Shown here one piece after another: positions 20,702 to 64,000 of a stretch of DNA of 64,000 nucleotides (the stretch's first letter is position 1; every line of letters begins with the position of its first letter). Origin of the DNA: Fructobacillus parabroussonetiae (GTDB lineage Bacteria; Bacillota; Bacilli; Lactobacillales; Lactobacillaceae); assembly GCF_018437265.1 (NCBI RefSeq), contig NZ_JAAMFL010000003.1, positions 62,001 through 126,000 on the forward strand, written 5' to 3'. The position numbers and the translations under genes are program-made. Under the pieces are notes generated by a model. It was not told the DNA's origin. It made no database searches and worked only from the letters and a program-made list of their open reading frames with translations.

Positions 20702-20825
20702 CAAGACCTCCTTTTGATTGATTGAAAAGTGAATTTTGTTAGGTTCATTATAACGAAAGTTGGGGCGAATCCAAAGGAATACCTATTGACATGCTCCTTG
20801 GAACTGCTAAAATGAAATTAACGAA

Positions 20826-21054
20826 TAACCGATGAGTAGGGAAAGAGCAAACCCCCTCGAAAAAGAGACCCGACGGCTGCTGAGAGTCGGGCGAGGCTTT
20901 GCTCAAGACACCTACACAGGCGCTGTTAACCCAGCCGTTTTCCCGCGTTAAGGGAAACCTAGCGTGTGCACGGCACACGAAAGTAAGGTGGTACCGCGCC
21001 AAAGCGCCCTTAGGAGATGTTGTTAGACAGCATTTCTTGAGGGCGCTTTTTTCG
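20826..21054 (+). promoter_or_regulatory. T-box riboswitch of hisS-aspS
   Basis: The T-box sequence AAGTAAGGTGGTACCGCG lies at 20981-20998. The terminator is AAGCGCCC...GGGCGCTTTTTT (21002-21053). The candidate specifier GACAC at 20907-20911 contains both GAC (Asp) and CAC (His) in overlapping frames, matching the two synthetase genes downstream. Uncharged tRNA would stabilise the antiterminator. Confidence 0.95.
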
Positions 21055-34019: not shown

Positions 34020-34068
34020 CTTGCACTTTTATTTGCCTGTGCTAAACTAGAAAACGTTCAATTGAATA

Positions 34069-34240
34069 GAACTTCGGGGTCGGGTGAAAATCCCAACCGG
34101 CGGTGATGCAGTCTAACTGATAAGCCCGCGACCTGCTTTTGCAGCTGATTTGGTGAGAATCCAGAGCCGACCGTACAGTCGGGTATAAAGAAGTTTAAAG
34201 ACAGTCTTTTTTTGACTGGCCTTTATTTTGCCCCGCGTGA
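34069..34240 (+). promoter_or_regulatory. FMN riboswitch (RFN element) with terminator
   Basis: RFN signature from ACTTCGGGGTCGGGTGAAAA to GAGCCGACCG, with the conserved CCAACCGGCGGTGATG and GTGAGAATCC segments (34070-34180). A terminator (AAAG-A-CAGTC/GACTG-GC-CTTT, 34197-34236) follows. FMN binding would stop transcription of ribU. Confidence 0.97.
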
Positions 34241-49002: not shown

Positions 49003-49073
49003 GTCATTTTAGAATAAAAACTTGTTTGTTTGCTAACTTCTTGCTATAGTTTGCTTGTATTTAATTGCATATA

Positions 49074-49202
49074 GAACTGGGGTACCGTTTTCGGTTGAGA
49101 TAAGACCCATTGAACCTGTTGGTTAATACCAGCGTAGGGAGTTTCGCACAAGCTTTTTTGAGATCATTCGTGCTGGATTCCGTCCAAACGAGTGATTTTT
49201 TT
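49074..49202 (+). promoter_or_regulatory. TPP riboswitch 1 with terminator, upstream of ykoEDC
   Basis: ACTGGGGTACC, TTGAGATAAGACCCATTGAACCTG split by loops, and ATACCAGCGTAGGGAG are the thi-box segments (49076-49142). The terminator ATCATTCGT/ACGAGTGAT with T-run is at 49162-49202. Confidence 0.95.
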
Positions 49203-61976: not shown

Positions 61977-61997
61977 AAAGGCAACAAATTAATAACG

Positions 61998-62136
61998 TCC
62001 GTTTAGGGGTGCTCATTTGAGCTGAGAGGCGTAAGCCGACTCTTCGAACCTGTTGTGTTAACGCACGCGTAGGGAAAACAGAAAAGACAAACAACGTTTC
62101 GTTCGCTTTTGCTGTTCCGGAACGTTGTTTTTTTGT
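61998..62136 (+). promoter_or_regulatory. TPP riboswitch 3 with terminator, upstream of thiT
   Basis: TAGGGGTGCTC, GAGCTGAGAGGCG, CGAACCTG and CGCGTAGGGAA are conserved thi-box parts (62003-62076). The terminator ACAACGTT/AACGTTGT with T-run is at 62089-62135. Confidence 0.93.
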
Positions 62137-62167
62137 GGTCCAGCATGCAGATAAAAGGAGAGAAAAC

Positions 62168-62737
62168 ATGCAGAACACAAAGTCGCAAAACTTACGATTC
62201 ATCACCGAAGTGGCGCTTTTCACCGCCTTATCAGTGGTCTTGAGCTTCTGGTCACTGCGCCTCTGGGGCGAAGGAGGGTCGATTTCATTCCAGATGGTGC
62301 CCACTATGATCATTGCTTACCGCTATGGCTATAAGGGCGGCTTAACCGTGGGCTTCCTCTTTGGTATGATCAAGCTTATCTTAGGGGCCTATATTTTAAC
62401 GCCTGTTCAGGCCTTTATGGATTATCCCTTGGCCTTTACCGTAGTTGGGTTCACTGCGCTGACAGTGCCAATGGTCAAAAAGGCCTTTACAGCAAAAAAG
62501 CTGGGCCTTGCTGGGCTTTGGTTAACGATTGGCGTCTTCATCGGCTCCTTCTTGCGCTTCCTTGCCCACCTCTTGTCAGCCGTTATTTTCTTTGGCCAGT
62601 ATGCACCAAAGGGGGAAAGCGTTTGGCTTTATTCGATTTTCTATAATGGTTCCTACATGTTGCCATCCTTTATTGCTTCGGCCGTTGTGCTGTTGATCAT
62701 CGCTCGGGTTTATCCAAAAATGGTGACGGTTGCCTAA
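62168..62737 (+). CDS. thiT: Thiamine ECF transporter S component
   Basis: 189 residues from the ATG at 62168; the longer frame begins in the terminator. Six membrane segments. LSFWSLRLWGEGGSISFQMVPTMIIAYRYG is the ThiT signature (thiamine-contact region about 25-55), with FYNGSYMLPSF later. Uses a shared ECF energiser. Third TPP-controlled unit in the window. Confidence 0.93.
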   Translation: MQNTKSQNLRFITEVALFTALSVVLSFWSLRLWGEGGSISFQMVPTMIIAYRYGYKGGLTVGFLFGMIKLILGAYILTPVQAFMDYPLAFTVVGFTALTVPMVKKAFTAKKLGLAGLWLTIGVFIGSFLRFLAHLLSAVIFFGQYAPKGESVWLYSIFYNGSYMLPSFIASAVVLLIIARVYPKMVTVA

Positions 62738-62773: not shown

Positions 62774-62802
62774 TTGACAGGGAACTCTCATTTTGCTTTA
62801 AT
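62774..62802 (+). promoter_or_regulatory. Promoter of the brnQ leader
   Basis: TTGACA (62774-62779), 17 bases, TTTAAT (62797-62802), 28 bases before the leader-peptide ATG. Confidence 0.82.
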
Positions 62803-62830
62803 AAGATTATCAAATGAAATGAGAAAGACC

Positions 62831-62887
62831 ATGAACAAGAATTTGACTTTGAATTTAGCCGTCGTCGTCAGCGTCGTTATCCACTAG
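62831..62887 (+). CDS. Branched-chain amino acid leader peptide
   Basis: 18 residues, MNKNLTLNLAVVVSVVIH then TAG. Nine of 18 codons are Leu, Val or Ile (3 Leu, 5 Val, 1 Ile), ending in a Val-Val-Val-Ser-Val-Val-Ile run. GAGAAAG lies upstream of the ATG. It is placed between a promoter and a terminator in front of a branched-chain amino acid transporter, so it should sense charged tRNA levels by ribosome stalling. Confidence 0.75.
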   Translation: MNKNLTLNLAVVVSVVIH

Positions 62888-62984
62888 GATAGGGAGCTGA
62901 TTTTTGGCCTGCCTATCCAAATCATGGATGGGCAGCTGAGCGAGTCAAATGACAAAGCCGGTTGCTTCTGCAGCCGGCTTTTTG
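62887..62984 (+). promoter_or_regulatory. Attenuator hairpins before brnQ
   Basis: GGATAGG (62887-62893) pairs with CCTATCC (62912-62918) right after the leader stop. A terminator AAAGCCGG/CCGGCTTT with T5 follows at 62954-62984. Alternative pairings, such as GGGCAGCTG with the terminator arm, could form the antiterminator; a folding run is needed. Confidence 0.65.
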
Positions 62985-63026
62985 TTTGGTCAAATGTCGT
63001 CAAGTTTATGGATGAGGAGTTTTCGG

Positions 63027-64000
63027 ATGGAAGAAAAACGAGCGAGTAAAAAAGACTTATTATTGATCACGTCACTGATTTTCGGCCTCTTTTTTGGGGC
63101 GGGGAACTTGATTTTCCCGGTCCAATTAGGGCAGTTAGCTGGTGGCCATGTTTGGCAAGCCGTTGCAGGATTTCTGCTAACGGGGGCCATCCTGCCATTC
63201 TTGGCGATGCTTGGGATGGCCTTAACCAAATCAACGTCGGTTTTTGATATTGCAAAACCCGTTGCTCCCTGGTTTGCGACCGTGATGGTCATTGCGGTTC
63301 ATTTCTCCCTTGGACCATTATTTGCGACGCCTCGTACGGCGGCCACGGCCTTTGCCATGGGCCTGGCACCCTTAGTTCCGGCAGGCTATCAACAGTTGGC
63401 CATGGTGATTTTCTCAGCACTCTTCTTCTGGCTGGTTTATCGACTGACGATGCAAGAATCCAACCTCATGAAGTGGGTCGGTCAGTACCTCAATCCCATT
63501 TTCTTGATTTTGATTGCAGTTATCTTGTTACTGGCGCTCATTTTCCCGATGGGGAGTTTGCAGCAGCCAGTGACGGGTGCCTATCAATCGGCGGCGACTT
63601 TTCAAGGGATTTTAGAGGGCTATAACACGATGGATTGTTTGGCCCTGTTGGCCTTTGCGGTTTCGGTTGTTTACGCCGTTCAAAACATGGGCTTTTCTGA
63701 AAATCAGGTACCCAAACTTCTGGCAAAGTCAGGCCTTTTCGCTATTTTGCTCGAGTCTTTCATCTATGTGGCCACAGCCTTGCTTGGTGTTTCTTCACTG
63801 GGCATCCTAAAAGTGGCAGACAACGGGGGAACGGCGCTATCCGCCATTATCGTGCACTACACGGGTAATGTCGGCATTATTTTGACTGGTGTTATTGTGA
63901 CCTTAGCCGTCATCACAACGGCCATGGGCCTCTCGGCTTCTTTTTCACAGGATTTACACCGGGTATTCCCAAAAATTTCTTATAAGACTTGGCTGCGAGT
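63027..64000 (+). CDS. brnQ: Branched-chain amino acid transporter BrnQ (3' end outside window)
   Basis: Starts at the ATG at 63027 with GAGGAG seven bases upstream and runs open to base 64000 (about 324 residues seen). LLITSLIFGLFFGAGNLIFP near the N-terminus is the LIVCS-family signature, with nine or more membrane segments visible. Sodium- or proton-coupled import of Leu, Ile and Val. The leader peptide and attenuator upstream match that substrate. Confidence 0.93.
   Translation, partial: MEEKRASKKDLLLITSLIFGLFFGAGNLIFPVQLGQLAGGHVWQAVAGFLLTGAILPFLAMLGMALTKSTSVFDIAKPVAPWFATVMVIAVHFSLGPLFATPRTAATAFAMGLAPLVPAGYQQLAMVIFSALFFWLVYRLTMQESNLMKWVGQYLNPIFLILIAVILLLALIFPMGSLQQPVTGAYQSAATFQGILEGYNTMDCLALLAFAVSVVYAVQNMGFSENQVPKLLAKSGLFAILLESFIYVATALLGVSSLGILKVADNGGTALSAIIVHYTGNVGIILTGVIVTLAVITTAMGLSASFSQDLHRVFPKISYKTWLR

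Follow-up and report, generated by a model that had tools for sequence, protein, structure and literature searches.

The region between thiT and the branched-chain amino acid carrier gene brnQ1 raises the question of how a permease gene is controlled where CodY or a T-box might be expected, and where an earlier note on this DNA had proposed attenuation of transcription by a translated leader peptide. We addressed it in the window, that is, the whole stretch of 64,000 nt that was analysed (G000:C8:62001-126000, in a Fructobacillus genome of 1.2 Mb), and in related genomes of the Lactobacillaceae and of the order. Computed directly were the anatomy of the leader, its conservation, the co-variation of its helices, the exchange of Val for Ile codons in a paralogue and, for this leader in a constrained model, the dependence of the fold on ribosome position. 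Together they make it very probable that the leader would act as a ribosome-mediated transcription attenuator, switching brnQ1 on when Val-tRNA is scarce.

The gene order is TPP riboswitch, thiT, promoter, leader, terminator and brnQ1, with the leader lying between the two transporter genes (Table 1). Elsewhere in the window, Rfam reports an FMN riboswitch (34066-34199) and a TPP riboswitch (49068-49157; two TPP in total), and a T-box match under the gathering score is found at 20823-21014 (C8:82823-83014, 78 bits). The assignment of brnQ1 as a branched-chain transporter gene, already made by the earlier note, is borne out by NCBIfam TIGR00796 above cut-off and by Pfam PF05525; over the part inside the window, its closest named relatives are those of F. 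papyrifericola (88%), F. fructosus (84%) and F. durionis (80%). Two other brnQ genes occur in the genome, brnQ2 in tandem (C8:126645-127937) and a third elsewhere (C11:14827-16137), and the BrnQ1 and BrnQ2 proteins are 67% identical.

Table 1. Features of the thiT-brnQ1 region (window positions; z values refer to matched versus mismatched partner segments)
Feature	Position	Strand	Remarks
TPP riboswitch	61995-62092		Rfam match; precedes thiT beside brnQ1
ThiT/YuaJ-type thiamine transporter (thiT)	62135-62737		directly upstream of leader
Promoter	62774-62802	+	-35 TTGACA 62774-62779, 17-nt spacer, extended -10 TGCTTTAAT 62794-62802
Weak Shine-Dalgarno-like GAGAAAG of leader ORF	62821-62827	+	
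Leader peptide ORF MNKNLTLNLAVVVSVVIH	62831-62887	+	ATG 62831, 18 codons, TAG 62885-62887
Segment 0	62841-62849	+	5' strand of long-range helix 0:0', z = -8.1
Segment 1 (codons VSVVI)	62867-62882	+	partner segment 2, z = -6.5
Segment 2	62887-62901	+	partner 1 for termination, 3 for antitermination
Segment 3	62909-62918	+	partner 2 (z = -7.7) or 4 (z = -7.4)
Segment 4	62926-62938	+	4:5, z = -4.1
Segment 0'	62942-62950	+	partner segment 0 within leader ORF
Intrinsic terminator (segments 5 and 6)	62954-62981	+	12 pairs; followed by T-rich stretch as far as about 62987
brnQ1, branched-chain amino acid carrier	63027-64000	+	exceeds window end; C8:125027 onward in genome

The anatomy described in the earlier note was largely recovered. 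The claimed promoter is present and conserved across Fructobacillus, where TTGACA-17-TTTAAT with an extended TG recurs exactly in 15 of 18 leaders and TGNTTTAAT in 17 of 18; a simple promoter scanner left it unlisted because it requires an A at the second position of the -10 element. The motif CTCAT lies in the promoter spacer before the extended -10 (window 62780-62802) in 13 of the 18 Fructobacillus Val and Ile leaders and, judged from sequence, could be a candidate operator or promoter element. Translation of the leader ORF would start from a poor Shine-Dalgarno site, its dG to the anti-SD (-2.7) being no better than the shuffled mean (-3.0; the mean of 41 family leaders is -4.5). The peptide has indeed the 18 codons and nine branched-chain residues that had been claimed (three Leu, five Val and one Ile), with a Val run made up of GTC codons 11-13 (62861-62869). 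At the L+V+I frequency of the window (0.249), nine or more such residues out of 18 have a probability of 0.019, which is weak by itself, and therefore the weight must come from relatives. The hairpin that had been placed right after the stop required correction: the first hairpin begins inside the Val codons (62867), spans the stop and ends at 62901, and is followed by a second one (62909-62935). The terminator was found as claimed, with its 12 pairs and T-rich run, and a terminator between ORF and gene is present in all 17 Fructobacillus leaders examined, the 18th (G202_V) being interrupted by a run of N. The 3' part of segment 4, GCAGCTG (62932-62938), pairs with the 5' arm of the terminator and thus constitutes the antiterminator.

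As regards the regulators that the earlier note would have expected, CodY was found over cut-off in none of 13 Fructobacillus and none of 397 Lactobacillaceae genomes, with two weak sub-cut-off matches in genus g30; CodY control of brnQ was rejected on this basis. The expectation of T-boxes holds for the genus, the source genome alone containing 16 matches at E <= 0.001, but not for this leader, which gave no match to RF00230 at E <= 1. Among 4227 families of Rfam 15, none reached the gathering score on the leader, the best match of any kind (E = 0.067) falling far below it, and eight related loci yielded two tRNAs only. A T-box or known riboswitch was accordingly discarded as the identity of the leader.

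Relatives within the genus retain the branched-chain codons. A Val leader was identified in 8 of 13 Fructobacillus genomes, reading AVVVSVVIR/H or AVVVSVLIR in seven of them and RVVVSVVI in G202, so that the codon content proposed for comparison in the earlier note proved conserved; conservation does not extend to the Leu codons (F. fructosus has MNNFLTHNSAVVVSVVIR), and the signal would be mainly Val rather than Leu, Val and Ile alike. The leader of the tandem paralogue brnQ2, MTHSFQNNQAIIISIIIP, shares the scaffold but has Ile codons at the corresponding positions (AIIISIIIP), the run codons of the two paralogues differing as whole codons (GTC to ATT). Such Ile leaders precede brnQ in 10 of the 13 genomes, as AIIISIIIP, as RIIISIIIQ/P (G150 and G202) or as AIMISIIHSGRC (G001); the G001 leader (L029) has no stop beside the run, its ORF continuing to a TGA inside segment 2. 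In seven genomes the Val and Ile leaders stand side by side, Val first, and in an eighth they occupy separate loci. No leader of this kind was found before the other Fructobacillus brnQ genes scanned, nor in G073, G100 and G126, which have one brnQ each, and the leaderless BrnQs placed in the tree form a clade of their own (5 rows, support 100/100).

In the BrnQ tree (31 of 38 proteins kept, the motif filter having dropped four no-leader BrnQs and three rows being shorter than 300 aa), the label "Val leader" among Ile-leader BrnQs implies at least three changes by well-supported branches, namely in the Fructobacillus tandem, in G202 and in genus g39, although a single gain with two losses may equally account for them. 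Over the Val codon stretch G202 has the same sequence as the tandem clade, in surroundings that resemble the Ile leader of G202 itself, and gene conversion is therefore as possible as parallel change. The biosynthetic gene ilvD was not found in any of the 10 leader-bearing Fructobacillus genomes, nor in 11 of the 13 of the genus as a whole; it is whole in G073 and present as a piece in G126, both without a leader. Hence, Val and Ile synthesis by that route is probably absent from the leader bearers, in an association that is confounded by ancestry and drawn from genomes 89-99% complete.

The RNA from 62800 to 62990 folds far better than its dinucleotide shuffles (z = -6.2; 0 of 200). Its segments form two mutually exclusive sets of hairpins, 1:2, 3:4 and 5:6 for termination and 2:3 and 4:5 for antitermination, and the long-range helix 0:0' links the start of the leader ORF with the RNA behind segment 4. 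Co-variation was assessed by comparing the binding of each segment to its own partner with that to partners from other clusters, using 20000 permutations on 41 leaders in 21 clusters, selected from 57 alignment rows to remove near-copies. The alignment from which the segments were cut had been fitted to 1:2, 3:4 and 5:6 alone, so that 2:3, 4:5 and 0:0' were unused in it. All five pairings co-varied (Table 1; 0 of 20000 permutations each), with z values that are not exact probabilities, because clusters inside one genus are related, while the control pairings 1:3, 2:5, 3:5 and 0:5 showed no co-variation (z = +0.7, +2.1, -0.5 and +1.9, respectively). A segment bound its own partner more strongly than it bound the foreign partners on average in 15 (1:2), 21 (2:3), 21 (3:4), 17 (4:5) and 17 (0:0') of the 21 clusters; for the last pairing, segment 0' as cut starts within segment 4, where the g16 partner of segment 0 seems to be located. 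The antiterminator fold thus exists and co-varies, and these mutually exclusive hairpins, along with the codon content kept in relatives, support the ribosome-mediated attenuation claimed at the outset.

Most leaders place Ser (AGC) between the codon runs, and there TCAGC pairs with GCTGA; in others the slot is taken by Asn (AAC; L153, L154), Arg (CGC/CGA; L145, L144) or Ile (ATC; L102). In these five variants the partner strand differs as well, and folding of each shows that the stem still forms (-10.5 to -15.5 kcal/mol), from which it follows that the slot residue is there for RNA pairing rather than for the peptide. Core nucleotide conservation is very high, and differences in ORF length among Fructobacillus leaders amount to whole codons. 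Of the 41 leaders, 27 have the start of the codon run at codon 11 and another 8 have it at codon 10 (the window leader having been counted from an upstream ATG, which gives 15 instead of the 11 obtained from 62831), that is, about one ribosome footprint behind the ORF start. With this spacing, a ribosome stalled at the run would extend back far enough to cover segment 0.

The influence of ribosome position was modelled by equilibrium folding of a transcript ended before the 3' arm of the terminator, with a footprint of -16 to +11 around the A-site codon masked. In the window leader, the expected number of 4:5 pairs is about 0 with the ribosome at the stop and 6-7 with the ribosome at Val codon 2, and 4 of 300 shuffles equalled or exceeded the observed increase in pairing at the 5' arm of the terminator. 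Over the 41 leaders, the mean number of 4:5 pairs is 0.56 both with the ribosome at the stop and with none at all; it is 3.2 when a single ribosome occupies the second run codon, and 5.0 when a further one is placed on the start codon. A single ribosome produced the antiterminator in 16 of 41 leaders, or in 18 when it stood on the first run codon; two ribosomes produced it in 25, or in 27 when the third run codon was the one occupied. In this set the reading frame used for L109 was wrong, and the window leader was read from an ATG four codons further upstream in the same frame, the window leader having also been modelled from its correct start at 62831. As only part of the leaders form the antiterminator, equilibrium alone does not explain switching in all of them. 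At a transcript length of 88, which precedes synthesis of segment 4, a ribosome on Val codon 2 leaves 2:3 as the sole hairpin of the minimum free energy (MFE) structure in the window leader (-14.0 kcal/mol), and the same holds for the stalled brnQ2 leader (-12.0 kcal/mol), whereas 2:3 is absent at this length with the ribosome at the stop. In longer transcripts the stalled MFE structure has 3:4 instead, which applies to the window leader at lengths 110-125 and as the complete RNA, and to the brnQ2 leader of the source genome from length 110 onward; the switch must therefore be kinetic, with the antitermination state kinetically held.

BLASTN of the leader against 201 family genomes gave just short matches beyond the genus (E 7e-6 to 0.01), and covariance models were used for this reason. 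The model R1, built from 17 Fructobacillus leaders (G202_V, with its terminator in a run of N, was omitted), matched 97 of 397 Lactobacillaceae genomes at E <= 0.01, many by chance. We inspected 55 matches: 42 outside the genus at E <= 1.2e-5, together with 13 weaker ones from Fructobacillus and from other genera. All 42 strong matches are leaders, 41 of them with an in-frame branched-chain ORF (twice a Val/Ser/Thr one), the irregular cases being a GTG start in L106 and L107 and a frame shift in L123. The 13 weak matches (E >= 2e-5; L124, L125, L127-L137) all have a terminator without a branched-chain ORF and were rejected as leaders. The element is thus present in 10 of 13 Fructobacillus and in at least 37 of 384 other Lactobacillaceae genomes, the latter from 10 genera, a count that is a lower bound because a further model, R2, found more, for example in G019 and as AAC-slot leaders in G054 and G112. 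No such leader was found within 420 nt upstream of the Pediococcus, Lactobacillus and Limosilactobacillus brnQ genes L036-L041, two of which (L036 and L041) are preceded by ORFs that contain a run of three but are unrelated.

Downstream genes were called by sequence signature, with one or two members per class scanned against profiles (the hydratase and MHS models matched below cut-off, PF05525 and PF04262 above). Behind the 42 leaders stand (i) brnQ in 15 cases, (ii) a hydratase-like gene in 12, followed in 9 of them by a brnQ signature no more than 1500 nt away, (iii) an MHS-type MFS transporter gene in 9, (iv) a glutamate-cysteine-ligase-like gene in 2, and (v) nothing found in 4, one of them at a contig end. 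The hydratase-like gene lies behind Ile leaders in g16 (L084 and 11 other loci); the L084 product of 262 aa resembles 2-oxopent-4-enoate hydratases below the NCBIfam cut-off, and a Pfam scan of this ORF found no family. Ile-run leaders precede MHS-type transporters in 9 genomes (L105, which was scanned, L108, L109, L111, L115-L118 and L120), and the sequence of these leaders hints that the transporters may carry Ile or a related acid. In L121 (3489-5080), a second leader, MIKSASIKLTVSVSSVTH, follows an operon of Ile leader, brnQ and ligase-like gene and precedes the glutamate-cysteine-ligase-like (gshA-like) gene; the counterpart in L122 reads MIKSASINLTVSVSSVTH, and Ser, Val or Thr are the candidate sensed residues. 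An orphan leader in g16, LILSVIVIIT with terminator (L112, L119 and L123; two intact, one frame-shifted), has no same-strand gene found behind it, the next gene being a convergent phosphoketolase gene (Pfam scan, L112 only).

Outside the family, R2 gave six weak matches in 395 genomes of the order. Three of them (L146, L147 and L150) were dismissed, no peptide of this type being found. The other three, all in family f5 (L143, L148 and L149, from G646, G673 and G617), encode II-S-II(I)R-type peptides together with an additional hairpin, before a gene for a LivJ-like binding protein (scanned in G646, by likeness in G673) or for threonine ammonia-lyase IlvA. They have no Rfam match and are possibly distant relatives of the brnQ element.

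Three other explanations of the leader were weighed against attenuation. Nascent-peptide arrest, known from the TnaC, SecM and Erm-leader systems, would have a hydrophobic peptide and a small molecule stall the ribosome, codons mattering only as tunnel residues; the conserved short hydrophobic C-terminus (XXX-S-XX) would suit an arrest peptide too. We regard it as highly improbable, given that all five Val are exchanged for Ile in register in the brnQ2 paralogue, that the middle residue varies among S, N, R and I with pairing kept, and that the last residues (H, R, P, Q, S, E and N among others) and the position of the stop vary, so that what survives is no single peptide motif but branched-chain codons and RNA pairing.

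That the leader might be a metabolite riboswitch or T-box-like element carrying an accidental small ORF is suggested by the frequency of T-boxes in the genus and by the very high conservation of the core. This is very unlikely in view of the Rfam results given above and of the coding character of the ORF, which is in frame in 41 of the 42 leaders outside the genus and which, in Fructobacillus, changes in length by whole codons and exchanges GTC for ATT as whole codons. Hardly to be credited, finally, is a constitutive partial terminator that keeps thiT and brnQ apart, accompanied by a small membrane peptide with an independent function: thiT does lie directly upstream and the C-terminus of the peptide is hydrophobic, but a dedicated conserved promoter stands between thiT and brnQ, the antiterminator pairings 2:3 and 4:5 co-vary, and the five Val of the peptide become Ile in the paralogue.

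In the attenuation mechanism that we favour, RNA polymerase would start behind the promoter and a ribosome would begin the 18-codon leader ORF. With ample charged tRNA-Val, which we take as the likely signal, the translating ribosome would reach the stop codon and cover segments 1 and 2, so that segment 3 would pair with 4, the freed segment 0 with 0', and the terminator 5:6 would form, ending transcription before brnQ. When tRNA-Val is short, the ribosome would halt on the GTC codons and cover segment 1; segment 2 would then capture 3, the free segment 4 would capture the terminator 5' arm, and polymerase would read through into brnQ. An untranslated leader would adopt 1:2, 3:4 and 0:0', and transcription would likewise stop. 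The helix 0:0' may act as a lock that the halted (or a queued) ribosome must open.

The class of mechanism is known. The his operon leader of enterobacteria has six segments, A to F, that form a relay of overlapping hairpins, and a T-box (RF00230) senses tRNA charging and controls amino-acid genes. The brnQ leaders resemble the his leader (no Rfam leader family matches the brnQ1 leader at gathering score) in the relay of 1:2, 3:4 and 5:6 versus 2:3 and 4:5 and in the codon run at segment 1; they differ from it in sensing Val or Ile, in controlling a transporter and in adding the co-varying helix 0:0'. Unlike in a T-box, the sensor of the brnQ1 leader would be a translated ORF.

Attenuators of branched-chain biosynthesis have been reported or predicted in several Gram-positives, and the passages of PMC6123439 and PMC5794164 that deal with them provided the set compared, namely E. 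coli ilvGMEDA, ilvBN and leu, the predicted ilv-leu leaders of Lactococcus, Streptococcus and Corynebacterium, and the ilv-leu attenuators of Staphylococcus and Listeria. As described there, these share with the brnQ leaders a short ORF with branched-chain codons before a terminator and a response to ribosome stalling; they stand before biosynthesis operons, whereas the brnQ attenuator precedes a permease gene, exists in two codon-swapped copies and occurs where ilvD is missing. The His leader peptides of hisZ and of a hisS paralogue in bacilli, in the part of PMC2965389 devoted to them, are likewise Firmicutes leader-peptide attenuators that replace T-boxes on paralogous genes, but His codons are common to those paralogues, while the leader codons of the brnQ paralogues specify different amino acids. 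A literature search for leader-peptide control of BrnQ-type permeases in Lactobacillaceae, with subscription literature mostly outside its scope, found no report; as far as checked, the target, the codon-swapped tandem pair and the helix 0:0' are new.

A broader reading, to which we give an even chance, is that of a re-codable family throughout the Lactobacillaceae, in which a seven-segment scaffold would have moved among genes, the codon run resetting its specificity, and would stand in for CodY. Its specificities would comprise Ile versus Val (at least three tree changes) and Ser, Val or Thr before the gshA-like gene, and its targets brnQ, hydratase-brnQ and MHS-type genes. On the same reading, 0:0' would sense where a ribosome has halted, roughly a footprint further downstream, perhaps with another ribosome in the queue. 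Were this true, the MHS-type transporters behind Ile leaders are predicted to carry Ile or a related acid.

The Val and Ile tandem paralogues on one leader RNA amount to a natural codon-swap experiment that sets code against scaffold in an attenuator, and the codon runs predict an amino acid for each BrnQ copy. The leaders also give substrate hints for the MHS-type transporters and the hydratase-like gene, and the helix 0:0' raises the question of ribosome queueing in attenuation. In a family without recognisable CodY, such an attenuator would be a main route linking branched-chain amino acid uptake to demand.
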